The notes under the pieces: model-generated
Database searches by the model: none
What the model saw: the letters and a program-made list of their open reading frames with translations, nothing else
What the model was told of the DNA's origin: nothing
Position numbers and translations under genes: made by a program
IMG/VR virus record: IMGVR_UViG_3300045993_000757
Location: 1-64,000 of that record
Strand: one strand, 5' to 3'
DNA length: 64,000 nucleotides
Source of the DNA: a virus
Shown: piece by piece, positions 47,905 through 64,000 of the stretch
Layout: every line of letters begins with the position of its first letter
Numbering within the stretch: the first letter of the stretch is position 1

Positions 47905-50900
47905 ATGCCCAAATATCCGCTGACCTTGCCGAACGGACAGTCGTTCGACATCGACTCGCCGAACGAGCTGTCCCAGTCCCAGCTCGCCGAAGCCCAGGGC
48001 CAGCTCATGGCCCAGTTTGGACAGGCCCAGCCCGACCCGACTCCGGTCGCCGAACCGTCGTTGTCCAATAACGCCTTCGATCCGATCGGTGCGGTGCGCG
48101 ATGCCATTGGACAGGAACTGCCTCCGCCAGAGTTCGGCGCCATGGATGTCCCTGGGGCGGCAGTTCGATCCACCATGGGTCAACTCGGTCAGGGGATGTT
48201 CAAGATCGGGCTTGGAGCCATGGGTCTGACTACGGGCCCATTGGTTGATGTGCTGACGGGAAACACACCCTTCCAGCAGAACCCAAGCTGGGAAACCCTG
48301 GGAGAAACGCTCAATCCCGCGAAGTCCTACGCCCGGTTTAAGCGCGGCGCCATGGCGCAGAATATAAATGACCTAGCGCGTTCTTCGGTCCCCGTCTGGG
48401 AAAGGCAGAACGATCCTTCCATCGCCCAGCCCACAGGGTTCACGAAGTCAGCCATCGATTTCACGGGGGGCGTTGCTTCCTCCGTCATCATGTCCCTTCC
48501 CGCCATGGTCACCGGGATCCCCGGGCTCATCGGGATGTCCATGGCCACGTTCGATCCGGCCTTTGAGGAGGCCCAGTCGAAGGGCGCAGGCGACACAAAA
48601 GCTTTCGCGCACGCCGTCCTTTCCACGGCGTTCGAAGCGGGATCCGAATACGTCGGATCGGCCTGGGCCAAGACCGCCCGGATGATGGAAACGATGCCGT
48701 ACCTACCGCCGACCGTGCGGAAGTACCTGTTCCAGGCAGAGCGAGGCCCCGTGGAGGATGCCGCCAAGGAAGCTGCCAGGAGTTTCTGGGGGACACTCGT
48801 TGGCACAGCCAGCAGGAAGGACGGGATCCACCTCGGCACCGCGACGATGGAAGGGCTGGAGGAAGTCTTCAGCACCGTGGCCCAGCGCATGAGCGCGGCC
48901 ATGCTCTACGACCCGACCCAGATCACGAACATCGGCGACCTGATGATGGACGCCGGGATGTCGTTCCTGGGCGGTGCCGCGGCGGGTGTGGCCTTCACCC
49001 CGCTGGAGCGCCGTGTCGCGCGCCAGAAGGTCGGCGAGGCGATGCGGAGCGGTGTCTTCGAGCAGTACCGCACGGCCCTGGAAGCCGCCAAGAAGGACGG
49101 CGCGTACCGACCTGAGGACCAGAAGGTCGTCAACGAGGCGGTCACCGGCCGTCGCCTGATGGAGCTTGGGGCTCTCTGGGGCAACACCGACATGGTGGCC
49201 AAGGGGAAGGAACAGCTCGCCGCCGCCACCACGCCCGAAATGGCAGCCGCCACGGAGGCGGAGGTGAAGAAGGCCGCGGAAATGTTCCACGCCGTCCAGA
49301 CCCCGGAAGGAGCGGCGACGGCTCACAAGCTGGCGGTCGATCAGTTCGGTGCGGACAGTCCCCAGGCGAAGAAGATGGCCGAGCTAGTGAATCAGGCCAA
49401 CGAGCACCGGCTGGACATCGCCCGTGCCCAGGCCGTGCAAACCTCCGGCCCCGGCATGAAGTCGGAGGAGTGGGCCAAAGTCGTCACCCAGGAAGGTCTT
49501 TCGCCTGACCGCGTCGAGCTGCACGCCAGCCAGGGATTCCGCGACAACGAGACGGGTCTTCCCACCGAAAATCCCAAGGATTCCCAGGGCCGTCCCAATC
49601 AGGAGCAGGAAGGCTACGTCGATCCGCAGACCGGCAAGATCCACATTTACCAGGGGTCCATCCTGGGCGACATCAACGCCGGCCGGGGATCCCGCCGCGT
49701 CCGCCAGCGTGAGCACTTCCGCCAGGTGTTGCGGGAGGAGGCCGCGCACACGGCGCTTCAAACGCCCCTGGGCCGGAGCCGCCTCAACGCCTACGTCGAG
49801 CACCTTAAGGCGAACGACTCGAAGGCCTACCAGGCGATCGTGGACACGCTGGCAAGGCAAGGATACCACCCCGACATCATCCCCGAGGAGTACGTCGCCA
49901 AGCTCTACCGGCAGCAGTCCTGGTTCCAGCAGAAGGTCGATGACTTCATGCTGGCCCTGCACCGTTGGACCGGCATCGGGAAGCTGAATCACGTTCGCGC
50001 CGGACGCTTGCTGATCCGCAGTCTCGTGGAGCATTCCCGGCAGGGGAACCTTCGCGGGAACGCCGGCGCTTTCCAGCCTGCCAACGCCGCCGCCGATGTC
50101 CGCCAGCAGGAGTCGCGGCTGGACATGGCCAGGATCCGCGCCCTGAACACGGAGGAGGCCAAGGTCATCGCGTCCGGACACGCCGCGATACTGACCCAGC
50201 CCCAGCTAGAGCAGGCGATCCGCGACCTGACGACGCGCTTGGAACTCATGAACCGCCAGGGGATCGGCGGCATGGTCAAGCTGGAGACGGAGCGCGTCCT
50301 GAAAGCGGCCAAGGACGAGTTTGTGGCCCGCGAGAACGTCCGGCGTCAGGCCATCCTGAACCAAGCGACCGCGCCCGTGCAGCCGCCGACGCCCAACACG
50401 CCCCAGGGCGGCACGGCACCTTTCGTTCCGGTCATCGACCAGCAACCCCCGACACCACCCCCCAATGCCCCTGATCAACAGCAGCAGCAAACAGGCAGTC
50501 AGCCAGAACATCCGAACGGAAATGAAGGCGGGCAAGCCCCAGAAGCAGGCAATAGCAATAGCCCTGGCAGTCCAGCGGAGAGCGGAGCAGAAGCGCCGAA
50601 TCCGGAAGAAAGCAAGGTAGCCAGCTACGTTCCGCCGGAGAACCCCGGCCACATTGCTGCCGACCTTTCGACCAAGGTTCAGCAGGGGGATTTGACGCGC
50701 GACGAAGGAACCGCGCTGTCGATCAAGTTTGGGGTCCAGGGCGAGTTCGATCAGTTCATGGCCCTGATCGACAAGGTCGCCGCCCGCGAGGCTTCTGGAG
50801 AGGCTCAGGCGGAACGCGAGGCGCGCAAGGCCAAGATCGACAACATCGTCTCCCGGCTGCTCGTGGGCGATGAGGTGGACGGTGGCATTCTGGAGTCCAT

Positions 50901-53900
50901 CGAACCCAGGGCGGAAGACGACCACTGGTTCGTGGTCCGTCACCCCGGAGGAACGACATCCGCATCCAACGTCCCGCCGATCATCGGCAAGATGTTCGAC
51001 CCGGCCTGGGTCCAGTCCATTGAGTCCCGGAAGCTCACGCGCGAGAAGGTGCTGAAGGCGGAGGAGCTGAAGAAGAAGATCAAGGGCAAGGAGAAGCCCC
51101 AGGATGCTCGGGAACAGGCGGCGGCAGAGGCTCGTGCCAAGAAGGAGGCGTTCGAGCGCGCCGAGGCTGAACGCAAGGCCAAGGAAAAGGCGGACCAGGA
51201 TGCGGCCCGCAACGAGTTCGAGTCGGCTTTCCAGCAGGCGAAGGCCCTGGCTCCTGGCGACAAGGTTGGAAAACGAGTCGTCCAATCCAACAACACCGAG
51301 ACCACGGACATCCAGTTCGAGGGCGAGAACACCCCCGAGGACTACGAGAACGTCGCCGTCTTCATCATGGACGGAAACGACGTGGTGAAGGCTTCAACGC
51401 CACCGCCGGCCGCAGGCAAGACGTTCAAGGTGGGCGACCGAGTTCAGTGGATGGACGGGAAGATCACAAGGACTGGCGTCGTCCGTGAGCAAACCGCCAT
51501 CGGGGTATCAGTCAACGACGATGACTCGGGCAGGAACTACCTGCTGGCTTCGAGTGACTTGACTGAACTCAGTAAGCCCGTTTCGGACCAACCCCAAGCC
51601 CCCGCGATCATCGAGGCGTGGAAGAAGGGGAAGCGAGAACTGGCCCAGCAACTCGCCGATCGACTGCCCGAACCCGGTGACACATGGGCGTTCCGGACTT
51701 CCGACACCGGAAACCTGGCTGGGTATGGTGCCGGGGATTCCACCTTCACCCGAGACCTGACGGTGCGTGGCAAGCCTCTGTGGCAATGGATCAACGAGGC
51801 CCAGGCAGATACCCTTCCGAAACCCGGATCCAACGCCCAGGAGAACAAGCCGGCCGCAGGGATCACCGCGGACAACCTGCACAAGCAGAACCTCCGGATG
51901 TTCACGGGCATCCTGAAGCCCATCATCGAACGTGTCCGAGGAATCTTCGATCGCCTTGAACGGGGGAAGAAAGTCTCCCAAGATGACCATTCGTTCCTCA
52001 GTCGGTACAGGGCTTTTGCCACCGAGAAAGTTAGGTCTCTGAATGAGGGGTTTGGGGATGTCCCCGCGGAGAGCATCGCTCAGAAGTACACCGATGACTT
52101 CGAGGGCATTGCCTTGGCCCGAGATTACACCAAGGCCCAACTGGAGGTGGAAAAGAGGCACCTCACCAAGTTTGGGCAACTGTTTCCGACGGGATCCGAA
52201 ACAGGGAACATCATCTCAGGACTTCTGGGCCGCGTCATGGAAGCGATCAATCGCCATGATGGTGTCCCGATTCCTCGCCTCGCATCCAAGATTCCCAAAC
52301 GTCCTATCCGCAAGCCCTCGACCCGCGAGCGTGCCCCCGACCTGATCGACCTCCTGATCGACACCGTGGGGAAGATCGACCCCAAGCTGATCAAGGAGGC
52401 CAATCCAGACTTCAAGCCCACGGGCGCGGCCCGCCTGCTGTTCAGCCCCAAGGGAACTCCAGCCGACCAGGCCATGCACGCCGTGGTGGGACAGATGGGC
52501 GTCACGGCCGACATGAGCATCGACCAGTTCGCCGAGGCGATAACGGCGGCTGCCAATGGCAGGAAGGCCACACGCAAGGGCTGGGCGGCGGAAGGGGCCC
52601 AAAACGACGCGGATGCCAAGCGCGCCCTGGCGTTCCATGCGTTCCTGGATAAAGAACGCCCGTCAGGTCTTAGCGTCTCCGAGTTGAAGATGGGCGACAG
52701 CTTCACGGTGGACGGAGATCCTTTCTCCGTCATCGGGGTGGAGTACGGCGAGGATGGAGGGCCTTTCTCGGTTACCCTGGACGGCGGGAAGAAGTGGGGG
52801 ACCCAGGTTGTCGATGGGAAGAAACCAGTCACGGTTGATGACGGAAGCTTCGCGGGCGTGAACGGCCCCATTGAGCCGGAGACCAGCAAGCTCCCGTCCG
52901 AAATCGCGGACGAGATTCGTCGAGTGGTTGGATTCATCCAGGAGGTCAGGAACTACCTCAATTCCCAGCTTCAGTGGAAAGACAATCACAGCCGCTTTGT
53001 CGTGGAGGAATACCTCAAGGACAACGCTCAGGCCATCGAAGCCGCTCAGAAGACCATTCAGGAATTCAGAGACGTTGCTCCGACTCACAACATCGACGCC
53101 GAGCTCGTCATCGAGGAACTCGGCGGAGTTCCTGACATCACGCTTCCCCCTGAAAAACCTGCGGGCATCCCAGGCTTCTTCGACGCCATCGAGTCCGACG
53201 AGGACCGGATCGCCCGCGAGCGCAACGAGGCCGAGCAACGCCGCGCCAAGGCCGACGCCGACAAGCTCCGCGACCTGGCCAACAAGCCGCTCAAGGGAAC
53301 TGCTGGCGACCTGGGGCAGGGGGCCCTGTTTGCGGAACCCGGCGACCAGGACTTGTTCGCCCCGCCGCCGGCCGACGTTCAGCCCAAGCGCAAGGCCATG
53401 GACGCGATCCAGGCCAAGGTGGACGCCCAGGACGCCACCAAGCGCGCCAAGATCGAGGAGCTGAAGAAGCGGCTGAAGCCGAACATGGGCGGAGAAGACA
53501 TCACGCCGTTCTCCCTCAAGGAGCTTTCTCCCCAGACCAAGAACGACCTGATCGAACTGTCGGGGCTCTACCTGAGCAGCGACATCGTCTCCTTCGCCGA
53601 GTTCTCAACCAAGCTCATCGACGACTTCGGGGACAGCGTTCGTCCCTGGCTCCAATTCGCCTATGAAAGCTCTCGGTTCTCTCCTGGTGCGACTTACAAG
53701 GGATCAATGGACCCGGCTGATTGGGTCGAACAACTCGCCAAAAAATATGACTCAGGTGCCACTCCGGATCTGGAATCAGATCGCTTCCGAACAACAGGAC
53801 AACCTGGACCCGATCGCGGTCCAACTGTTCAGCCTGAAAACCTCGGACCAGCTCAACCTGGTGATCGACCTGTGGCACCAGGAGATTCGCAAGCTGACAC

Positions 53901-56900
53901 CGGAACCCCTGGTGGCGTCAGCGATCGTGGCGATTCTACCACTGATGCGCGCCCAGCGGGCGGTGAACGCCTTCCTGAGCCAGCGGCCAGCCCTGTCGTG
54001 GAACGTCCGGCAAGCCATCCCGGAACTCAACGGCCTGGACGAAGCGGTGGAACTGGGCGTGCTCGAGTATCGGCTGCGGCGCAATCAGACCTTGGATCTC
54101 CGGAAGCTCCTGTCGTCGCCCCAGACGTGGCAACTCCTCCGCCCGATTTTGGAGCGTACCCCAGCGACAACCCCGTCGCCGACCAAGCCGACGCCAACGC
54201 CCGATCCTACCCCTGGCTCTCCGCCGATCCCGGCAACATAGAGAGCACGCTTCCGATGCTGTTCCCCAGCCAGCGGAAGAACGTCTTCCTGGCGGAGCGG
54301 CGGTTCGCGGAGACCCCGGTGGCAGCCACGCACGCCTCGGGCACCGGCCTGGGCGATCCCAAGCGCGGGATCCTGTTCACCGATGGCACCGGCACCGGCA
54401 AGACCTACTCCGGGGCAGGCATCGTCAAACGCTTCCTCATGCAGGGGAAGACGCGGATCCTCATCGCGGTCCCGAACGCCAACATCATCGAGGCGTGGAA
54501 GTCGGCGATGAAGGACTTGGAGATCCCGCACTTCGTCCTTCCCGACACCAGCACCGCCGCCAAGGGCGTCACGCTGACCACCCAGGCGAACCTCCGAAAC
54601 AACGCCGAGCTCGCCAAGCAGGACTTCGACCTGGTGGTCATCGACGAGTCTCACAACCTCCTGTCCAACGAGGCGGGTGAGGCGAACGCGGGTCTTCGGT
54701 CCTTCCGGATGGTGGCCAACCACCCCGACAGCGTGGAGCGAAAGGCCACGAATGCCATCATCGGGCCTGCCCCGGTCCAGGCGGACTACGCAGGCGGAGG
54801 TGATTTCGCGGCTGCCCTTCACCAGTGGGACCAAAAGCGCATCGACAACATGGCGAAGATCAGCGCCGAGGTGAAGCGGATCAACGAACTGAACACCAAG
54901 GCGCTCTTTCTTTCAGCTACGCCATTCGCCTACCACACCTCGCTCATCATGGGCGACGGGTTCCTCTACTCCCTGCCCGACGACAGTCAGCGAACCGGAT
55001 ACAATCAGCCCAAGGGATTCGACCGGTTCCTCGCCGAGAACCTGGGATGGCGGATGCGAACTGGGAAGCTGAACAAGCCCAGCGCAAACGTGGACACTTC
55101 GGTCATGGAGATCCAACTCCACGACCTGTTCGCCAAGCGCGGGGCCATGCACGGCGTCTCGCTCGATGTTCCCCAGGACTACAGCCGGGAGTTCGTCCTG
55201 GTCCGACCGGCCGCAGCGCAGAAACTCGATGATGGGTTCTCGTTCTTCCGTGGCGGCGAGTCGTACCAGCAGCAGTACCCGATCCTCAATAAGGTCTTCA
55301 ACGAGCTCTGGGACTACAACCACGTCGCCCAACTCCTCGAAGCATTGAAGATGGACTCTGCCATCGAACGCATCCGCCAGCACGTTGCCATGGGCAGGAA
55401 GGTCATCCTGCTCCACAGCTACCTGAAGGCGAAGATCCATGCCCACCCCTTCCGGTTCGAGACCTACCCGCCGGAATTCCTGATGGCTTTCAACGGGGCG
55501 GATCTCAAGGCTGAGATGGACCGTTTCCGGAACGATCATGCCGAGTGGGCCAACATCGTCATGCCCGACTCTGAGCTTTCGTTGGAGAAGATCCGCCGCG
55601 AGTTCGGAGACTCCGTGGTCTTCAACAACGGCAAGGAGGCCCCCCGAAGTCGTGTCGAGGCGGTGATCGACTTCAACCGCGACGGTGGCGGCGTGAATCT
55701 CCTGGTCGGTCAGCTTCAGGCGACCAAGGAAGGCGTCTCGCTCCACGACAAGAGCGGGAAGCACCAGCGCGTCATGATGATGGTCGCGCTGCCCATCCGA
55801 CCCACCGATGCCATCCAGGCCGAGGGTCGCGGTTACCGGATCGGAGTGAAGACCGACGCCATCAACGAGTACATCGTGCTCCACACGATGATGGAGCGGT
55901 TCGCCTTCGCCTCGAAGATCAACGAGCGCGCGGACACCGTGGAAACCCTGGCCCTGGGATCGGACAGTCGAAACCTTCGCGACCGATTCCGCGACGGCTA
56001 CCTCAATGCCATCGACGCGGATCCCAACGACCAGCAGGGCAAGGGAAGCAAGGAGGCCGACCGCCGCGCCGAGACGATGTCGGACTTCGACCGGGCCGTG
56101 TCCTTCTACTTCGCCCGCACGAAGAAGAACTCCCGGACCAAGAGCGCCGAGGGGCTGGACTACTACCCCACGCCGGAGCCGCTGGGGCTCAAGATGGTGG
56201 AATGGGCTGACCCAAGCGCCGGGGACGCCCTGCTGGAGCCTTCCGCCGGCCACGGGGCCATCGGCCAGTGGTTCCCCAACATCGGCCAGCACGCCTACCT
56301 GGAACCCTCCGCCGAGCTTCGCAGCGAGCTGGGAATCAAGGTGAAGGCGGGGACCGTCTACTCGACGACGTTCGAGGACTACCACATCACGAACAAGTTC
56401 GACGAGATCGTGATGAACCCGCCGTTTGGTCGGGCGGGGGCCACGGCGTTCGCGCACCTCGCCAAAGCTTTCCGACATCTGGTAATGGGCGGGCGTATCG
56501 TCGCCCTGGTTCCCGATGGGGCCAACACGAACGACAAGATCGTCGAACTCCTAAGGGCCGGGAATGATCCCACGGGGCACTATGACGGCCGAGTGTTGCG
56601 GGCGGACATATCGCTTCCTTCGTCCGTGTTTGAACGGGCCGGGACCAGCGTTCGGACTCGCCTGCTGATCTTCGATACGCCGACCTATTCCGATCTCCAC
56701 TCCGGCCACCGGATCGGAGAAGGGCTTGAGAACCTGTTCCCGCCCACGTTCACGACCAAGATCGAGGCCAACACCATCCAGGAGTTGTTCGACCAGATCC
56801 GCGACCTGGACGTTCCGGCGCGAATCCGGAAGCCCAAGCCCGCCCCAAGCAATCCGCTGACCACACGGGACGCCATCATCCAGACGACATCCCAGGGCCC

Positions 56901-59900
56901 CGGCGTCGTTCCCACCCGCCAGCAGTCCACCACACCCCAGCTTCCTCCGTTGTTCAAGCTGGGTCAGACGACGCACGCGAAGAAGGGGATCCAGTTGTTC
57001 GTCGCCACGCTGACCAAGAGCTTGAGCGATGCGAACTTCTCCGTAGTCAACCGGATCGCCAAGAAGCACGACGGATACTACTCGGGGTACAACAAGGCCA
57101 ACGCGATCCCAGGATTCCAGTTCGACGCCGCGGATCAACGAGACGATTTCGTCGCCGAGGTTGAGCGGGCACTCCGACCTCCCGACGAATCCACTCCGAC
57201 CTACTCCCTGAAGGCGCGCGATCCGTTTGAGGTCAACGACATCACGCGCACCCGCGGGGCCATCATGGCTTCCATCGGAGTGCCGCACGTCGCGGATGCC
57301 ATGACGATGACCCCCGACGAGTTCGCCGCCGGGAAACATCCGACTGTCCTGGGGTTCTCTGGCAAGTCTCTATGGCAAGCCATCAACAGCGGGGATCCCA
57401 CCCTTTCGGCGTTGCTCCGTTCGCCCGCCTATTCGCTCAAGGTCCGTCCGGTGCAGTCGGACCTGTTCGACCGGGAGACGACGCGGAGCATCGCCCAAGC
57501 CTACACCTCGGCGGGAACGTCGCTGCCGAACAACCGCCCCGCCCTGTTCTCGGTGATCGACAACGGGGACGGGTGGAAGGCGCAGAGTCGAAACATCGAC
57601 TTCGGGGCCGGGAAGTCCTTGTGGATGGACGACGCCCTCAAGAGCCGGGGCGTGGAGAACCTTCGGTACGATCCATTCAACGAGGCCTCCGCCGTCAATG
57701 AGGCCACCGTCGATTCAGCTCTCCGCGCCCCGGCCGACACCTTGACCGTCGCCAACGTGCTCAACGTGGTCGCGCCGGAGGCTGCGTTGGATGAGACCAT
57801 CCGTCAAACCGCCCGCCTGCTGAAGCCGGACGGCAAGGCGTACTTCTGGGTCCACTTCGAGAACGGCAAGAAGTCCGGCGTTCCCCGCGGTCGCCCCGAC
57901 TCCTGGCAATGGCACCATAAGGCCGAGTGGTACGTCCCACACCTGAGCCGCTTCTACGGAAAGGTCGAGACCATCGGCCAGAACATGATCGTGGCCTCGC
58001 AGCCGATCCCCGTGGTGGGCGAATGGTCGCCGTCCGCGGAAGGGCCCACGTTCAGCCTCAAGCCGCGCGCCTACGACCTCACGCCGAACGGTGGGAATCC
58101 CATGGTGCCGCGCATCGGCTACCTCACCGGGAAGCACAGCGCCAAGATCCTCGCTCGCGCCCAGGCCCGCGGGGACATCGGGGCCCTGATTACGCCGACA
58201 TCGTCGCACTCATTGGACACGGCCCGGTCCTACCCGTTCTACGCCGTGGACAATGGCGTGTTCGGTAAGGCCGGGTTCAACGAGCCCAAGTTCAACGCCC
58301 TCCTGAACAAGATCCAACCGGGCGATCCCAAGGTCTTGTTCGTCGTGGCCCCCGATGTCCTGGCCCACCTTCCCAATGGCCAGGTGGTCGGGGATGCCGC
58401 GGCGACCATCGAGCGGTTCAAGGATTGGGGCCCTCGGATCCGGGAGCGCGGTCTTCCCGTGGCTTTCGTGGCCCAGGACGGGCTGGAGGATCGGTTCAAC
58501 GACATCCCATGGGACGGTATGGACGTGCTGTTCATCGGCGGGTCCACGGGCTGGAAGCTGGGCGAGTTCGCCGATCCGGAGCGCCGGCGGCGGTGGGAGT
58601 ATGTGATGGGCGAGGCGCACAACCGCGGCATCCCGATTCACATGGGGAGGGTGAACTCCAACGAGCGCCTGACGGGCCACGCCGTGGACATGGCTGCGTC
58701 CACCGCGGACGGGACCCTCCTGGCGTTCGGGGAGGACATCAACTTGCCCAGGCTCGAATCATGGCTGGATCAGTTGAACCACGGGGGGCTGTCTTACGCG
58801 GCTCGGAACATGACGGAGTTGGGAAGATTGCCCACGAGGCGGGAGATTATCGACTTGGCCAGTGATCGGAATCTTGCCTATGAAACCCTCGGGGCATTTG
58901 AGCCCGCCCTGGACGAGATCAACGCCACGCGCAACGAACTTGGGCTGCCCCCAATCGCACCCCGCCAGTTCGATCCGGGCCAAGCTGAGTTCGGTTTCTC
59001 GCTGAAAAAGCCAGTCCGGATGTTCCGCAGCTACGCCGAGTTGGAAACGGGGGCTCTCCAGTTCGAGTCCTGGCGCGACTGGTACTCGGCCGACAAGGCG
59101 AACATAGACTCTATGTTCGGTAAGGATGCCCCGCTGTTCGCACAGGTTCTCGCTGCCACGTCCATCCAGACTGAGGTTCCCGATAATGTCGGTCGAGCCT
59201 TGCGCGCCTACATTGAGATGATTCAGGGAGCGCCATTCACTGGTCAGATCCCATCGGCTAGGGTCAATTTGGAGCGAATCCGGGATGGAGAGTCGATCCG
59301 TGGCCCCAAGATAGAACCTTTTGCTCGGGCCATCATGGGCGATGAAAGCGCGATCGCTGTTGACAGGCACGTCATCCGCGCGATCTTCGGCGAGGACGCG
59401 GTCGCTACTCCGGCACTCATAAGAAAGGCACAAGATGTCATTCGCAAGATTGCGGCGAAACACGGGTGGACTCCTCGGCAAACCCAGGCCGCAGTCTGGG
59501 CTTGGAAAATCAATCTCAACGGGAAAACCCCCCAACGATACCTCGACTCCCTCACTCCCGATCGCTTCGCTAGCACAATCCGTGGATCAGGAGTTGAAGG
59601 ACTCGTTCGATCGCGCACGAATTTTGGACAGGGAACTCAAGCAGGCGTTGGGACCGGGGCGGCAGACACCGGATCCGGAGTTCAAACGGGAAATGAAACC
59701 CCCGCTTACAGCCTAAAGACCCCGCCCGATCACCGGCCGCTCGCGGAGGACATCAACGCTTTCCGCACCGAGTTCCCCACGGCCCCGCCGATCGTCGTCA
59801 ACCAGGACGATGCCGCGCGCGGGGCCCGGTTCGAGAATGGCGAGATCGTGGTCGCTGAGACCATGATGCCCAGCAGCCGCACCGGTCGCCGGGCGGAACT

Positions 59901-62900
59901 CCTGGCGGCTCTCTCAGACGCCGGTCGGCTGAACATTCCCCAGGGATTCTGGGATCGAAGCTGGAAGGGTCTTGTCGCGGCTTCCCCCGTCCTCATCGAG
60001 GAGACACGCAAGTCCATTGGCGGGAACATCGACACCCAAGAAGGCCGCAATGCCATCCTGGCTGAGTTGGTGAAGCGGACATCAAAGTCCTCCGCCCCCG
60101 TGGGATTCGTGCGTTCGGCCCTGGCGTTCTTCCGTGGCCTCGACCAGACGAAGACCCCGGCCTACATCATCGCGGCCATGCAGCGGACGCTGGACCGGGT
60201 GACCGACCAGTTCACGCCACACCAGGCGGGGCCGCAGGGCGAGGCGGACTTCGGACCCACCGACACGCTCCACCAGTACATCGGCGGTCTCAACCGCGAC
60301 GGATCACAGCGGGCGAGTGGCGTTCAGGAACAGGTCTTCGCCGACCAACACTTCGCCCTTTGGAACTCCTTCGAGCCTGAGCTTTCCCGCATGGAGGCGC
60401 GGCTCTCCGATCTTCAGACGGGGCTCCTGGAGGACCACCAGTTCGAGAGTGTCCGCCAGCGGATGCAGCAGATCGCCGACACGGTCCTGGCAACGAACAT
60501 TGCGAACCACCGGCGCGCGGCCCTGAACATCGCCGCCGATGACTTCATCGACCAAGTCCAGGAGGTGAATCCTGACCTCCTCACCCGCGAGGACATCGAG
60601 AACCACAGCATCTATCTCAACGAGGTGAAGGCCCGGCGAGCCATGTCGCTCATGCAGAACATCGAGCGGAACAAGGCGACTCGCGATTACCTGACGGACA
60701 ACCTGCCCCAGTACCCGATTCAAACCCTGAACCGCCGCATCTCCCGGCAGCAGATCCGCCTGTCTGACATCGAGCAGAACCACCCCGAAATGTACGCTCG
60801 TGCCTCCGAGTTGAAGTCGCGGGTGGAAGGCGATCCCGCGGCCCGCGCCGCCGCCGATGCCATTTCCGACCCGGCCATCCAGGAGTGGGTCGAGGTCATC
60901 CATCAGATCCGCGAGAGCGGGACCCAGCCGCGCGCCCTGGCAGCCATGCCGGTGGCCATCCAGAATTCCGCCGCCGTCGCCGCCGGGGTGTTCCAGTACA
61001 AGGCCAGGGCCATGCGGCGGGAGCTGGGGGATCGCCTGGTTCGAACGACCGACACCGCCCTTCGCGCCCTCAACAAGCTCGTCGAGGAACGGCGCAATTC
61101 CCGGCAGAAGGAAGGTCAGATCGAAGTCGCCATGGTGGAGATGATCCAGGCGGCACGCGGGGACGCCGGGGCCAGCGGTGGCCTCTACACCCTGGAGGAA
61201 GCCAAGCGGATGCGGGACATCGGGGACCGCGCCATCGCCCGGTTTGCTCGATTCCTGGGGGCTTCAGATCCCGGAACGCTGCCGGCTGAGCTTCGGGATG
61301 CCTTCATCGAGGACAACCTGATGTCCATCGGGATCGACCCGGCGACCCTGAGCGGGCCCAACTCGTTCGATCTCGACCGGATCGCCACCGATGCCGGGAT
61401 CTCGCGGGAAGCCTTCCTTCAGATCATGGAACTGGCGCGCACCTCGCGCCCCTTCCAGAACATGGTGGTCGCCCTGGCCGACGAGGCCGACGAGCGCGCT
61501 GAGACCAGCATCCTCAACGCCATCCAGCGGCTCCAACGGGTCCGCAACGAAGTCCTGAGCCGCCCCAGGGATCCGGTGGACACCACCGGCCTGACCCCCA
61601 AGGAGGCGCGCATCGCCATCGCCCGATCCGAACGTGCCATCATCCGGCAGGCGAACCAGGAGGCGCTGCTCTCCGCGGCCCCGTTCCTGCGCTCCCTGAA
61701 GCAGCAGACCCTCGAACTCAAGCAGTCGAACCGGTCGATGGACACGCAGATCGAGCGGTTGGAACGCGAGCTTCAGACGATCCAGAACCTCTCCGACATG
61801 GCCAACGCCGTGGACGGAGCGGCCCACGAGCTGGCCCCCGACAACTTCGGGGTGGCCGAGATGGTCTACCAGACTTCGGACGGCGTCTTCATGGCGGAGT
61901 TCCTGACGGCGGAAGGAACCCAGCCCGGCGTCCGGGTCAGCCCTGGCGAGGAGTATTCGGCCGAGAAGATCATGGAGATCATCCTCTATCGGGACGCGGC
62001 CCTGCGCGCCATCGCTGCCAACGTGAACCCGCCGGAGATCACGCGCGGCTTGGAAGTCGCCGTGGACATGGTCCTCCCGCTGATCGACGCCAACTCGACC
62101 CCCGGATCCATCGGAAAGACCCTGTCCCCGAACGGCCTGTCCGAACAGTGGACGAAGTATCCCATGGGCGTTCGAGCCGCGATGCCCCGCTTGATCCCCG
62201 GCATTTCCGGCCGGCGACTGGCGGAATCCATGGCCACCTACGCCCGTGTCGGAAGCAAGGTCACCGCCATCCTCAACAAGTACCACGCCCGCCGCGTCCA
62301 GTTGCTCAAGGCGGCGATGGACTCGATGAACCTGTCGCCCACGGACGAACTGGCGCGGTCCTCGTTCCGGCAGGTTTACAGCGAGGTGGCCCATCGCCTG
62401 CGCGAACACGGATCCAACGTGGCTCCTGGCGATCAGACGTTCTCCGGAAATCACGGATCCATCGTGACCCCGGAGCTGATCACCCTCCTCCGGTACGACC
62501 GTGAAATCTTCAGGGCCGTCCAGGACATCGTGGAAAGCCTGCCCTACGGCGGCATCCGCGAGTCCATCCCCGGCATGGATGTCCGCCTCATTCGCCCCTC
62601 GGCCGAGACCGGCGACGTGGGCCTGGCCCGGTCAGTGAACAAGGACTTCGAAGTCCCCCTGGCTCGCGCCTATTCCGCCGCAGTCACCCTGGCGACGAAC
62701 CAGCAGAAGGTCACCGGACAGAACGTGATCCCCGACATCACCGCGTTCTGGGACATGAATCCGCACCACATCCTGTTCCACATCCTGGACGCTGGGCGGA
62801 ACGACCTGGCCTTCGCTCGCAATCCGCAGCTTGTGGCCTTGGAGAAGCGATACGCGGCCGACATCCGCGCCGGCCGGGCCCAGGCCCCCAGGACGGTGCA

Positions 62901-64000
62901 GCAGGTCGTGAATGCCCTGACCGCCCTGGCCGGGGGAAGAATCCCGCCCGCGACCGTGGCCAAGCTGTTCAACGAGGAGCTGAACCGTTACGGCAAGGTC
63001 GCCCTGACCCGGAACTCCCTGGAATCCGAGGCCCCCAAGCGTTCCGAGGGGGTTCACATCGGCGAGGATGACACGAACGAGTTCTCGTCCCCCGCGGCGA
63101 AGCTCATCTACCCCTCCGACTTCTACGAGTACGGGGCCAACGGGATCGACATCCGGCAAGCCGTGGAGCGCATGGCGGACCGGGCCCAGGTGGCCATGCT
63201 CGCGGCCATGGAGGATGCCGCCAAGACCCTGAACTCCATCGTCAGCCGCCTCCAAGGTCCGATCCAAGGCATCACGTCCGAGGATCATGACATCGTCCGT
63301 TGGTCCACGCCCAACATGGACAAGTCCACCCTGTTCAAGCGGGTCGCCGCGGCCATCGAGGTGCTCAACGACCGGGCGCGGATGCTGCGCGCCGAGAAGG
63401 CCAAGCTGATCGACACCGGGGTATCCCCTGGAACGCTCGTTCAGCTCATGCGGGCCAACTTCCCCATGATCCTGAGCTGGCCGCGCGCCATGCTGACGAA
63501 CGTGGTGGGTGGGCCCATCGCCTCCGTCTACACCATGGCCGCGGTCTACGGCCGGCCGGCCGCGGTGCTGTTCGCCGCCCTGAATTCCATCGGAAGCATG
63601 GCCACGCTGGCATCCGAGTCGTTCCTGTGGACGGCGAAGAAGCTGGGATTCGATGTCACGGGGGGATCGAGCCCCAACTCCTTCCTTTCGAACCGCGCCG
63701 AGGCTCTGGACTGGCTGGAGTCGGTCGGCCTGGGCGTCACCTCGTACTCCCATGCCGAGATCCAGGAGTTGCAGTCCTATATGCAGGGGCCGGGCCTGAA
63801 GAAGGCGTTCTTCCGCGGGGCCCTGAAGGTCGGGGCCGCAGTCGAGAATGTCCTGGGGCAACACGTTGGCGTCTCCGCCGGCGACCGTATCCTGAACCGG
63901 TTCGCCGCCCAGATCGTCGTTCCCATGACCCTTTGGCGGCTGAAGAAGTTGGCCCTGCGCTGGCAGCAGCGACTTGCCAAGATGGATGTGGTGGCCGGGC
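47905..64000 (+). CDS. Polyvalent virion protein, >5,365 aa, C-terminus beyond window
   Basis: One frame runs from ATG 47905 to the window edge without a stop. In order: short start (MPKYPLTLPNGQSFDIDSPN); hydrophobic segments (180-220); zincin-like EEAAH (about 612); P/Q/G-rich linker (850-910); coiled coil (1043-1117); SH3-like (1174-1222, 1596-1638); disordered linker (1925-2110); SF2 helicase (2112-2686); adenine methyltransferase (2750-2890); GYYS-type domain (3016-3095); second methyltransferase-like domain (3190-3370); TGT-like (3395-3625); HhH-like (3700-3880); helix-rich remainder with hydrophobic patches. This matches large phage polyvalent proteins thought to enter the cell with DNA and counter host defence. 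DarB of phage P1 is a partial precedent for the helicase-methyltransferase pair. Confidence 0.9.
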   Translation, partial: MPKYPLTLPNGQSFDIDSPNELSQSQLAEAQGQLMAQFGQAQPDPTPVAEPSLSNNAFDPIGAVRDAIGQELPPPEFGAMDVPGAAVRSTMGQLGQGMFKIGLGAMGLTTGPLVDVLTGNTPFQQNPSWETLGETLNPAKSYARFKRGAMAQNINDLARSSVPVWERQNDPSIAQPTGFTKSAIDFTGGVASSVIMSLPAMVTGIPGLIGMSMATFDPAFEEAQSKGAGDTKAFAHAVLSTAFEAGSEYVGSAWAKTARMMETMPYLPPTVRKYLFQAERGPVEDAAKEAARSFWGTLVGTASRKDGIHLGTATMEGLEEVFSTVAQRMSAAMLYDPTQITNIGDLMMDAGMSFLGGAAAGVAFTPLERRVARQKVGEAMRSGVFEQYRTALEAAKKDGAYRPEDQKVVNEAVTGRRLMELGALWGNTDMVAKGKEQLAAATTPEMAAATEAEVKKAAEMFHAVQTPEGAATAHKLAVDQFGADSPQAKKMAELVNQANEHRLDIARAQAVQTSGPGMKSEEWAKVVTQEGLSPDRVELHASQGFRDNETGLPTENPKDSQGRPNQEQEGYVDPQTGKIHIYQGSILGDINAGRGSRRVRQREHFRQVLREEAAHTALQTPLGRSRLNAYVEHLKANDSKAYQAIVDTLARQGYHPDIIPEEYVAKLYRQQSWFQQKVDDFMLALHRWTGIGKLNHVRAGRLLIRSLVEHSRQGNLRGNAGAFQPANAAADVRQQESRLDMARIRALNTEEAKVIASGHAAILTQPQLEQAIRDLTTRLELMNRQGIGGMVKLETERVLKAAKDEFVARENVRRQAILNQATAPVQPPTPNTPQGGTAPFVPVIDQQPPTPPPNAPDQQQQQTGSQPEHPNGNEGGQAPEAGNSNSPGSPAESGAEAPNPEESKVASYVPPENPGHIAADLSTKVQQGDLTRDEGTALSIKFGVQGEFDQFMALIDKVAAREASGEAQAEREARKAKIDNIVSRLLVGDEVDGGILESIEPRAEDDHWFVVRHPGGTTSASNVPPIIGKMFDPAWVQSIESRKLTREKVLKAEELKKKIKGKEKPQDAREQAAAEARAKKEAFERAEAERKAKEKADQDAARNEFESAFQQAKALAPGDKVGKRVVQSNNTETTDIQFEGENTPEDYENVAVFIMDGNDVVKASTPPPAAGKTFKVGDRVQWMDGKITRTGVVREQTAIGVSVNDDDSGRNYLLASSDLTELSKPVSDQPQAPAIIEAWKKGKRELAQQLADRLPEPGDTWAFRTSDTGNLAGYGAGDSTFTRDLTVRGKPLWQWINEAQADTLPKPGSNAQENKPAAGITADNLHKQNLRMFTGILKPIIERVRGIFDRLERGKKVSQDDHSFLSRYRAFATEKVRSLNEGFGDVPAESIAQKYTDDFEGIALARDYTKAQLEVEKRHLTKFGQLFPTGSETGNIISGLLGRVMEAINRHDGVPIPRLASKIPKRPIRKPSTRERAPDLIDLLIDTVGKIDPKLIKEANPDFKPTGAARLLFSPKGTPADQAMHAVVGQMGVTADMSIDQFAEAITAAANGRKATRKGWAAEGAQNDADAKRALAFHAFLDKERPSGLSVSELKMGDSFTVDGDPFSVIGVEYGEDGGPFSVTLDGGKKWGTQVVDGKKPVTVDDGSFAGVNGPIEPETSKLPSEIADEIRRVVGFIQEVRNYLNSQLQWKDNHSRFVVEEYLKDNAQAIEAAQKTIQEFRDVAPTHNIDAELVIEELGGVPDITLPPEKPAGIPGFFDAIESDEDRIARERNEAEQRRAKADADKLRDLANKPLKGTAGDLGQGALFAEPGDQDLFAPPPADVQPKRKAMDAIQAKVDAQDATKRAKIEELKKRLKPNMGGEDITPFSLKELSPQTKNDLIELSGLYLSSDIVSFAEFSTKLIDDFGDSVRPWLQFAYESSRFSPGATYKGSMDPADWVEQLAKKYDSGATPDLESDRFRTTGQPGPDRGPTVQPENLGPAQPGDRPVAPGDSQADTGTPGGVSDRGDSTTDARPAGGERLPEPAASPVVERPASHPGTQRPGRSGGTGRARVSAAAQSDLGSPEAPVVAPDVATPPPDFGAYPSDNPVADQADANARSYPWLSADPGNIESTLPMLFPSQRKNVFLAERRFAETPVAATHASGTGLGDPKRGILFTDGTGTGKTYSGAGIVKRFLMQGKTRILIAVPNANIIEAWKSAMKDLEIPHFVLPDTSTAAKGVTLTTQANLRNNAELAKQDFDLVVIDESHNLLSNEAGEANAGLRSFRMVANHPDSVERKATNAIIGPAPVQADYAGGGDFAAALHQWDQKRIDNMAKISAEVKRINELNTKALFLSATPFAYHTSLIMGDGFLYSLPDDSQRTGYNQPKGFDRFLAENLGWRMRTGKLNKPSANVDTSVMEIQLHDLFAKRGAMHGVSLDVPQDYSREFVLVRPAAAQKLDDGFSFFRGGESYQQQYPILNKVFNELWDYNHVAQLLEALKMDSAIERIRQHVAMGRKVILLHSYLKAKIHAHPFRFETYPPEFLMAFNGADLKAEMDRFRNDHAEWANIVMPDSELSLEKIRREFGDSVVFNNGKEAPRSRVEAVIDFNRDGGGVNLLVGQLQATKEGVSLHDKSGKHQRVMMMVALPIRPTDAIQAEGRGYRIGVKTDAINEYIVLHTMMERFAFASKINERADTVETLALGSDSRNLRDRFRDGYLNAIDADPNDQQGKGSKEADRRAETMSDFDRAVSFYFARTKKNSRTKSAEGLDYYPTPEPLGLKMVEWADPSAGDALLEPSAGHGAIGQWFPNIGQHAYLEPSAELRSELGIKVKAGTVYSTTFEDYHITNKFDEIVMNPPFGRAGATAFAHLAKAFRHLVMGGRIVALVPDGANTNDKIVELLRAGNDPTGHYDGRVLRADISLPSSVFERAGTSVRTRLLIFDTPTYSDLHSGHRIGEGLENLFPPTFTTKIEANTIQELFDQIRDLDVPARIRKPKPAPSNPLTTRDAIIQTTSQGPGVVPTRQQSTTPQLPPLFKLGQTTHAKKGIQLFVATLTKSLSDANFSVVNRIAKKHDGYYSGYNKANAIPGFQFDAADQRDDFVAEVERALRPPDESTPTYSLKARDPFEVNDITRTRGAIMASIGVPHVADAMTMTPDEFAAGKHPTVLGFSGKSLWQAINSGDPTLSALLRSPAYSLKVRPVQSDLFDRETTRSIAQAYTSAGTSLPNNRPALFSVIDNGDGWKAQSRNIDFGAGKSLWMDDALKSRGVENLRYDPFNEASAVNEATVDSALRAPADTLTVANVLNVVAPEAALDETIRQTARLLKPDGKAYFWVHFENGKKSGVPRGRPDSWQWHHKAEWYVPHLSRFYGKVETIGQNMIVASQPIPVVGEWSPSAEGPTFSLKPRAYDLTPNGGNPMVPRIGYLTGKHSAKILARAQARGDIGALITPTSSHSLDTARSYPFYAVDNGVFGKAGFNEPKFNALLNKIQPGDPKVLFVVAPDVLAHLPNGQVVGDAAATIERFKDWGPRIRERGLPVAFVAQDGLEDRFNDIPWDGMDVLFIGGSTGWKLGEFADPERRRRWEYVMGEAHNRGIPIHMGRVNSNERLTGHAVDMAASTADGTLLAFGEDINLPRLESWLDQLNHGGLSYAARNMTELGRLPTRREIIDLASDRNLAYETLGAFEPALDEINATRNELGLPPIAPRQFDPGQAEFGFSLKKPVRMFRSYAELETGALQFESWRDWYSADKANIDSMFGKDAPLFAQVLAATSIQTEVPDNVGRALRAYIEMIQGAPFTGQIPSARVNLERIRDGESIRGPKIEPFARAIMGDESAIAVDRHVIRAIFGEDAVATPALIRKAQDVIRKIAAKHGWTPRQTQAAVWAWKINLNGKTPQRYLDSLTPDRFASTIRGSGVEGLVRSRTNFGQGTQAGVGTGAADTGSGVQTGNETPAYSLKTPPDHRPLAEDINAFRTEFPTAPPIVVNQDDAARGARFENGEIVVAETMMPSSRTGRRAELLAALSDAGRLNIPQGFWDRSWKGLVAASPVLIEETRKSIGGNIDTQEGRNAILAELVKRTSKSSAPVGFVRSALAFFRGLDQTKTPAYIIAAMQRTLDRVTDQFTPHQAGPQGEADFGPTDTLHQYIGGLNRDGSQRASGVQEQVFADQHFALWNSFEPELSRMEARLSDLQTGLLEDHQFESVRQRMQQIADTVLATNIANHRRAALNIAADDFIDQVQEVNPDLLTREDIENHSIYLNEVKARRAMSLMQNIERNKATRDYLTDNLPQYPIQTLNRRISRQQIRLSDIEQNHPEMYARASELKSRVEGDPAARAAADAISDPAIQEWVEVIHQIRESGTQPRALAAMPVAIQNSAAVAAGVFQYKARAMRRELGDRLVRTTDTALRALNKLVEERRNSRQKEGQIEVAMVEMIQAARGDAGASGGLYTLEEAKRMRDIGDRAIARFARFLGASDPGTLPAELRDAFIEDNLMSIGIDPATLSGPNSFDLDRIATDAGISREAFLQIMELARTSRPFQNMVVALADEADERAETSILNAIQRLQRVRNEVLSRPRDPVDTTGLTPKEARIAIARSERAIIRQANQEALLSAAPFLRSLKQQTLELKQSNRSMDTQIERLERELQTIQNLSDMANAVDGAAHELAPDNFGVAEMVYQTSDGVFMAEFLTAEGTQPGVRVSPGEEYSAEKIMEIILYRDAALRAIAANVNPPEITRGLEVAVDMVLPLIDANSTPGSIGKTLSPNGLSEQWTKYPMGVRAAMPRLIPGISGRRLAESMATYARVGSKVTAILNKYHARRVQLLKAAMDSMNLSPTDELARSSFRQVYSEVAHRLREHGSNVAPGDQTFSGNHGSIVTPELITLLRYDREIFRAVQDIVESLPYGGIRESIPGMDVRLIRPSAETGDVGLARSVNKDFEVPLARAYSAAVTLATNQQKVTGQNVIPDITAFWDMNPHHILFHILDAGRNDLAFARNPQLVALEKRYAADIRAGRAQAPRTVQQVVNALTALAGGRIPPATVAKLFNEELNRYGKVALTRNSLESEAPKRSEGVHIGEDDTNEFSSPAAKLIYPSDFYEYGANGIDIRQAVERMADRAQVAMLAAMEDAAKTLNSIVSRLQGPIQGITSEDHDIVRWSTPNMDKSTLFKRVAAAIEVLNDRARMLRAEKAKLIDTGVSPGTLVQLMRANFPMILSWPRAMLTNVVGGPIASVYTMAAVYGRPAAVLFAALNSIGSMATLASESFLWTAKKLGFDVTGGSSPNSFLSNRAEALDWLESVGLGVTSYSHAEIQELQSYMQGPGLKKAFFRGALKVGAAVENVLGQHVGVSAGDRILNRFAAQIVVPMTLWRLKKLALRWQQRLAKMDVVAG
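49714..49767 (+). other. Degenerate zincin-like motif in polyvalent protein
   Basis: Residues about 604-621 read HFRQVLREEAAHTALQTPLG. The local layout (basic, hydrophobic, E-x-x-H, then TAL) is that of a metallopeptidase motif, but the first histidine of HExxH is replaced by Glu. If this is a zincin-like domain it is probably inactive or uses another ligand; similarity may also be fortuitous. Confidence 0.35.
50465..50620 (+). CDS. Nested +1-frame gene: 51-aa basic protein with AGKPQKQA-type signature
   Basis: Within the P/Q/G-rich linker of the polyvalent protein, an ATG at 50465 opens a frame shifted by +1 and closed by TAG at 50620. It starts MPLINSSSKQAVSQNIRTEM and continues KAGKPQKQAIAIALAVQRRA. 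Small standalone phage proteins of the form MPL.kg.S.k.i..NI..e..aGKPQKQAvAIAl.. are a recurrent family in my memory of phage genomes, though of unknown function. GC3 in this frame is 38/51 (75 %), against 22/50 (44 %) for the main frame over the same DNA, so the nested frame carries the genome's normal codon bias. No clear Shine-Dalgarno is seen. Confidence 0.7.
   Translation: MPLINSSSKQAVSQNIRTEMKAGKPQKQAIAIALAVQRRAEQKRRIRKKAR
53663..54241 (+). CDS. Nested +1-frame gene: about 163-192 aa helical protein
   Basis: A +1 frame is open from ATG 53663 to TAG 54241; a likelier start is ATG 53750 (MTQVPLRIWNQIASEQQDN). The product is leucine/glutamine-rich, without the glycine/arginine excess typical of shadow frames (TSDQLNLVIDLWHQEIRKLT), and ends in a P/T tail. 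Over 140 codons GC3 is 113/140 (81 %), against 53/138 (38 %) for the main frame in the same stretch, while flanking main-frame codons are GC3-rich. The main frame reads as a P/G/D/T/S-rich linker here. Function unknown. Two sequencing indels swapping the frames is the main alternative. Confidence 0.55.
   Translation: MKALGSLLVRLTRDQWTRLIGSNNSPKNMTQVPLRIWNQIASEQQDNLDPIAVQLFSLKTSDQLNLVIDLWHQEIRKLTPEPLVASAIVAILPLMRAQRAVNAFLSQRPALSWNVRQAIPELNGLDEAVELGVLEYRLRRNQTLDLRKLLSSPQTWQLLRPILERTPATTPSPTKPTPTPDPTPGSPPIPAT
54240..55960 (+). other. SF2 helicase domain of the polyvalent protein
   Basis: Motifs in order: TDGTGTGKTYSG (Walker A, about residue 2160), LVVIDESHN (DEAH-type Walker B, about 2247), LFLSATPF (motif III, about 2336), then NLLVGQLQATKEGVSL (motif V-like) and QAEGRGYRIG (motif VI with arginine finger, about 2640). 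All ATPase motifs look intact. Coupled to a methyltransferase domain immediately downstream, as in DarB-type anti-restriction proteins. Probably acts on injected phage DNA. Confidence 0.85.
56150..56570 (+). other. Adenine-N6-type DNA methyltransferase domain
   Basis: Residues about 2750-2890 contain YYPTPEPLGLKMVEWADPS, EPSAGHGAIGQW (SAM-binding motif I, about 2778) and MNPPFGRA (catalytic motif IV, NPPF, about 2837), followed by GGRIVALVPDGANTN. This is a standard N6-adenine methyltransferase core, with motif I before motif IV (gamma-like order). It could protect entering phage DNA from restriction. Confidence 0.85.
56950..57185 (+). other. GYYS-type polyvalent-protein-associated domain
   Basis: Residues about 3016-3095 contain HAKKGIQLFVATLTKSLSDA, then AKKHDGYYSGYN and PGFQFDA. 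A conserved HxKKG...AKxxgGyYS...pGFxF pattern is found in many phage polyvalent proteins after the helicase-methyltransferase pair; its biochemical role is not known to me. Confidence 0.65.
57460..58020 (+). other. Second SAM-methyltransferase-like domain
   Basis: Residues about 3190-3370 contain NIDFGAGKS (motif I, glycine-rich), NLRYDPFN, TLTVANVLNVVAP (motif IV-like) and LKPDGKAYFWVH. This resembles a class I methyltransferase found in many phage polyvalent proteins; the substrate (DNA, RNA or protein) is unknown. It starts after an [F/Y]SLK motif at 57430. Confidence 0.65.
58090..58780 (+). other. TGT-like (queuine tRNA-ribosyltransferase-like) TIM-barrel domain
   Basis: Residues about 3395-3625 read GALITPTSSHSLDTARSYPF, AVDNGVFGKAG, FVVAPDVLAHLPNGQVVGDA, VAQDGLE, VLFIGGSTGWKLGEF, HMGRVNSNERL and STADGT. 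The order of these blocks matches a family common in actinobacteria and phages that I associate with TGT/DpdA-like enzymes acting on deazaguanine bases. A role in exchanging or modifying bases in DNA is plausible but not shown; the remote match makes 'TGT-like' the safe call. Confidence 0.6.
59010..59560 (+). other. HhH-like DNA glycosylase/lyase-type domain
   Basis: Residues about 3700-3880 have FAQVLAATSIQTEVPDNVGR, then GPKIEPFARAIMGD and AVDRHVIRAIFGEDA with a late WTPRQTQAAVWAWK. These blocks (AATSpqT...NV, GpKi.pF..ai.GD, aVDrH) recur in a small phage protein family that I believe folds like HhH-GPD glycosylases; I have no proof of activity. Together with the TGT-like domain next to it, DNA base removal or exchange is a reasonable hypothesis. 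Confidence 0.55.
59435..59716 (+). CDS. Possible third nested +1-frame ORF (93 aa or shorter)
   Basis: A +1 frame is open from ATG 59435 to TAA 59716; a GTG at 59582 would start a 44-residue product (beginning VDQELKDSFDRARILDRELK). The last 53 codons have GC3 about 62 %, against about 45 % in the main frame, whose sequence here is a G/T/S-rich linker (GVGTGAADTGSGVQTGNETP). The signal is weaker than in the two other nested frames and the first third is less convincing. Confidence 0.3.
   Translation: MSFARLRRNTGGLLGKPRPQSGLGKSISTGKPPNDTSTPSLPIASLAQSVDQELKDSFDRARILDRELKQALGPGRQTPDPEFKREMKPPLTA

Follow-up and report, generated by a model that had tools for sequence, protein, structure and literature searches.

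Does the long +1 reading frame that lies within a giant phage gene encode a protein of its own, and what might such a protein do alongside the giant one? The locus is found in a stretch of 64,000 nt (hereafter the window), which is part of a 75,109-base virus record. The ORF list and its translation place a giant polyvalent (DarB-like) gene on the plus strand at 47905-63999, with at least 5,365 codons and continuing past the window end, and this gene hosts the frame in question. Polyvalent or DarB-like antirestriction proteins are a described class (Iyer et al. 2017, PMC5512222). The outer gene is of this kind, being a giant ORF with helicase and methyltransferase domains and homologous to annotated DarB-like proteins; its relatives are annotated as DarB-like antirestriction, PLxRFG or LPD38 proteins, and PHROG 10691 is matched by P0001, which adds to the evidence for the giant gene.

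The nested frame in the window

The nested gene extends from 53747 to 54241 on the plus strand (164 codons and a stop codon at 54239-54241), in the +1 frame relative to the polyvalent gene, and is matched in tblastn, profile and leave-one-out HMM searches. The main frame over the same DNA (53747-54240, plus strand) translates into a low-complexity linker of the polyvalent protein, in which 86% of the residues are P, G, S, T, D, E, N, Q, A or R. The contrast between a linker-like main frame and a helical +1 product, first drawn in the earlier note from the sequence of this locus, is borne out by this composition and by the structure predictions described below. Directly downstream, the main frame encodes a ResIII/Strawberry-notch-like helicase domain (54358-54672, plus strand; Pfam PF04851, E=8.7e-11), followed in the same module by a methyltransferase (MTS) match (56359-56535, plus strand; Pfam PF05175, E=0.0044, below the curated cut-off), for which the counterpart in Klebsiella phage ZX1 gives PF05175 with E=5.8e-08. 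A further long alternative frame, +2 and 333 aa in length, is present within the giant gene at 61503-62501 (plus strand).

The codon bias on which the earlier note had relied is reproduced to within a few points: from 53750 to 54180, GC3 is 80% in the +1 frame (115/143 codons) and 41% in the main frame (58/143), where 81% and 38% had been given, and the main frame is indeed GC3-rich in the flanks (82% at 52900-53650 and 88% at 54250-55000). The +1 frame is free of stops from 53576 to 54238, so that an ORF of 192 aa can be read from the ATG at 53663. However, this start, one of those put forward previously, does not hold: alignment with relatives places the conserved start at the ATG at 53747 (MTQVPLRIWNQI...). 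Hence, of the proposed nested gene of 163-192 residues, the gene with its own ATG and conserved protein product stands, and its length is fixed at 164 aa. The upstream extension (53663-53746, plus strand) has no conserved counterpart, relatives beginning at the equivalent of 53747, and a GC3 of only 54%; it probably lies outside the nested gene.

Neither codon bias nor openness is accepted alone as proof of a gene, since 46% of synonymous recodings of the window's main-frame protein still have an open +1 frame (P=0.46). The +1 frame is easily open by chance here because the P/G/A/D-rich linker yields few stops. The proof of the nested gene is comparative, and codon bias is supporting, not decisive.

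Homologues in other phages and predicted structure

The +1 product has tblastn matches, with about 30% identity, in Vibrio phages D274 and 1.232.O, Klebsiella phage ZX1 and Serratia phage Parlo. The strongest of these has E=3e-5, and some are weak. Each of the four phages has its match in the +1 frame of the annotated giant CDS, with no annotation for the matching stretch itself. A second-round search with these four homologues returned strong mutual matches and extended the set to Pseudomonas phage Skulduggery, Ruegeria phage 45A6, a Comamonas plasmid record, IMG/VR contigs and methanotroph MAGs. A single-protein search of viral contigs with P0002 returned nothing. Homologous ORFs are thus present in 6 distinct isolate phages, each +1 to the annotated giant CDS. 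In total, 114 distinct nested ORFs have been collected, and the outer frame is open throughout in 114/114. Stops in the +1 frame of relatives, the outcome named beforehand as speaking against the gene, were looked for, and the nested ORFs were found to be uninterrupted.

The window copy is very divergent from its relatives. Nevertheless, an HMM built without the window sequence picks this ORF out of the complete six-frame ORF set of the window, with E=5.3e-19. Family members are about 120-165 residues in size; positions invariant across 26 sequences include M1, Q3, P5, W9, N10, P65, L66 and A72. In the window product the conserved core spans approximately residues 1-123 (53747-54115), and the remainder is a window-specific P/T-rich tail. 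The alternative frame is therefore kept as a protein across divergent relatives, as is the case for a nested gene. The family, common to more than 100 distinct phage sequences, is unannotated in the public records examined, because gene finders usually exclude long same-strand overlaps.

AlphaFold2 predicts eight helices for the Serratia phage Parlo homologue (L018, an identical protein), with a pLDDT of 88.6 and a pTM of 0.82. The window version is predicted to have a similar helical layout with a pLDDT of 69.5, residues 41-130 lying mostly at 70-95. The nested protein could not be convincingly placed in any family of Pfam, PHROGs or NCBIfam, and a PDB sequence search with the nested-protein profile gave no match. 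Foldseek comparison with PDB and BFVD yielded no match at E<=0.001 and VIA-align reached Z<=3.0 only, an absence of fold matches that is not proof of a new fold.

Selection on both reading frames

If the +1 frame is the selected one, as had been proposed, substitutions between relatives should concentrate at its wobble position, and this is what is found. Across 33 disjoint pairs, substitutions at main-frame positions 1/2/3 number 1054/738/597 within the overlap, compared with 961/898/1520 upstream and 1144/882/2217 downstream. The overlap differs from the flanks with chi2=441 and p=1.9e-96, a p-value to be taken as a guide and not as exact, as the substitution tests treat sites as independent, and the reversal is seen in 30/33 pairs. 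Main position 1 is the wobble position of the nested frame, and therefore conservation inside the overlap is higher in the nested frame; the pairs average 0.69 amino-acid identity in the nested and 0.57 in the main frame. The window has no close relative in the collections, and it is solely by homology that its own copy bears on these counts. In a sliding scan along the whole giant genes of seven pairs, only the nested locus shows the reversal consistently, and no second nested gene is consistently indicated elsewhere in the giant gene.

The main frame is constrained as well: with the nested protein recoded, 3.9% of draws for the window, and 0/2,000 draws for six low-GC relatives, have a main frame without stops.

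Start signals

The nested ORFs start with ATG in 112 and with GTG in 2 of the 114 distinct sequences, and an in-frame stop lies within 10 codons upstream of the start in 48 of them. A Shine-Dalgarno-like motif (AGGA, GGAG or GAGG at the right spacing) precedes 72 of the 85 nested starts checked, as against 6-8.5% of other ATGs within the same regions, which served as the control. Initiation signals of its own are hence found for the family; the window copy has an ATG but lacks a Shine-Dalgarno motif. In the window only 3 of 23 long ORFs (663-47905; some starts may be misassigned) have a Shine-Dalgarno-like motif, and as the other 20 also lack it, the phage may rely little on this signal, suggesting that host or phage makes little use of it.

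These data bear on two explanations that would dispense with a nested gene. The weaker, that the +1 frame is open by chance owing to the P/G/A/D-rich linker composition, draws on the ease with which recoding leaves the frame open, and is refuted by the comparative data, namely +1 protein homology across distant phages, the reversed substitution pattern, the start signals and the confident fold, so that we give it a negligible chance. The second holds that the two frames are merged, either by two compensating assembly indels or by programmed frameshifts that enter and leave the +1 frame, the helical stretch then being part of the giant protein. In the window the +1 product is protein-like and the main frame linker-like, as merging would have it. 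However, the same two-frame layout recurs in all the distinct sequences, with the ATG or GTG at the same place, a stop of its own, usually a Shine-Dalgarno motif, and in many cases the in-frame stop shortly upstream. Compensating indels cannot explain a layout that is the same in more than 100 distinct sequences, and we consider merging highly improbable. That a nested protein-coding gene exists at 53747-54241 is, in our assessment, practically certain. Its expression by internal initiation on the giant-gene mRNA is very likely as well, translation itself being deduced from the sequence.

Association with a fused helicase-methyltransferase module

The nested ORF sits immediately upstream of a fused Strawberry-notch-like helicase-methyltransferase in every case examined. 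Two profile scans with the downstream helicase retrieved 160 loci. All loci at which a giant ORF includes the fused helicase have a nested +1 ORF (136 rows after partial de-duplication, contigs recurring between both scans), whereas stand-alone helicase genes (about 840-870 aa where complete) have a nested ORF in 0/11 distinct loci. In the phage collection, nested protein and helicase are matched by the identical 8 records. The nested gene is absent from three giant genes that carry other modules, those of Klebsiella phage SopranoGao, BcepIL02 and Pavtok. The giant proteins of SopranoGao (L037) and ZX1 (L003) are 98% identical over their first 1,025 residues, but SopranoGao carries a different methylase-helicase module, without a nested gene, at the ZX1 site, and DNA similarity between the two stops about 150 bases before the nested start. 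This module difference represents domain swapping inside one gene. Divergence of the nested protein correlates with that of the helicase (rho 0.46) better than with that of the upstream main-frame region (rho 0.18), the latter being hard to align. The simplest reading is that the nested gene and the helicase-methyltransferase form a cassette.

At one further locus (L040:3923-4062), register between the giant and helicase frames is lost directly after the nested ORF, which is +1 to the upstream giant frame, and the helicase is in the nested frame; the register shift may be an indel, an assembly or sequencing error, or a real split.

An apparently stand-alone homologue (E=2.2e-24) is encoded in the bacterial genome G091 (L202:9575-9937; G091:C88), downstream of a Sel1-repeat/trypsin-like protein; the integrated element in which it lies has, from a reading of its proteins, a P4-type integrase and primase. 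The contig is without a giant gene and ends about 330 bases past the homologue. It is the only stand-alone copy in about 780 genome searches, in which some genomes were covered twice; the other genome match checked, G651, is nested in the usual way. The G091 copy hints that the nested protein can work alone, or it is a remnant.

A possible role for the nested protein

Based on the above, we propose that ribosomes would initiate internally on the giant-gene mRNA, so that the small protein is made alongside the giant one. The nested frame would give a compact all-helical protein under selection of its own, and the outer frame, staying open, would give a flexible linker that joins the upstream part of the giant protein to the Strawberry-notch-like helicase-methyltransferase module. 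The nested product, synthesized along with the giant protein, might then serve the helicase module as a dedicated partner. For a direct partnership with the helicase or the giant protein, suggested by co-occurrence and a shared mRNA, we regard the case as evenly balanced.

A free effector is the main rival to a chaperone or packaging role. According to this explanation the nested protein is real but independent of the giant protein, acting as a free effector, an anti-defence protein or a regulator, and is sited over the linker because the DNA there tolerates a second frame and ensures expression with the giant gene. The apparently stand-alone homologue in the element with the P4-type integrase and primase is in line with independence, as is the absence of detectable similarity to known chaperones, weak Pfam and NCBIfam matches (TY-Chap1, E=0.09; OrgB, E=0.0039) being all that was obtained with chaperone families. 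On the other hand, strict coupling to the fused helicase module, the stronger co-divergence with the helicase and the rarity of stand-alone copies speak against it. We consider an independent protein a serious possibility, a little short of an even chance.

A more specific form of the partnership is that the nested product is a small chaperone or a packaging/assembly factor. This fits co-expression, the helical fold, the strict coupling and the presence of a related DarB-like protein in the virions of phage JC1 (PMC9144972), and we put it forward tentatively, as the role that we favour but that is on balance unlikely. Somewhat more doubtful again is the full history that we envisage for an entombed gene. 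A separate small gene upstream of a helicase-methyltransferase gene would have been engulfed when the latter was fused to a giant virion protein, its DNA becoming a linker in the other frame. Partner and helicase would since have moved jointly from one giant phage gene to another, and the product would prepare the giant protein for packaging or injection.

Comparison with known systems

The host gene resembles the polyvalent proteins described previously (PMC5512222) in being giant and multidomain, with a helicase and a methyltransferase and a DarB-like annotation in relatives. An overlapping gene is not mentioned in Iyer et al. 2017 (PMC5512222), as judged by a word search, and the overlap is not reported in the texts searched on polyvalent proteins, DarB-like phages and overlapping genes, a set outside which most subscription journals and bioRxiv preprints lie. 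Overprinting has been reviewed (PMC8227390); nested genes are a known kind, and this family and its location in a polyvalent gene are unreported in the literature searched.

With a folded inner and a linker outer product, the locus provides an unusually clean natural case of dual coding for testing the origins of overlapping genes, and a handle on how proteins 4,000-5,000 residues long come to be folded, packaged and delivered by phages. A mutation anywhere in the linker would affect two genes.

Nested same-strand genes in phages include Rz1 within Rz of lambda and B, K and E of phiX174. The present gene is like these in being a complete same-strand second gene in another frame, having a start and a stop of its own, with both frames maintained. 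To our knowledge, the nested protein has no sequence relation to Rz1 or to phiX174 B, K or E. In contrast to Rz1/Rz and phiX174, the host gene here codes for a giant protein with multiple domains, and a predicted folded inner product is paired with a linker as the outer one. In paramyxoviruses, the C protein encoded within the P gene is a folded protein overlapping a disordered region, and the likeness lies in a second product placed over a low-constraint region of the outer protein. The viruses and proteins are unrelated, however, and the overlap in the phages described here is bound to a single helicase module.
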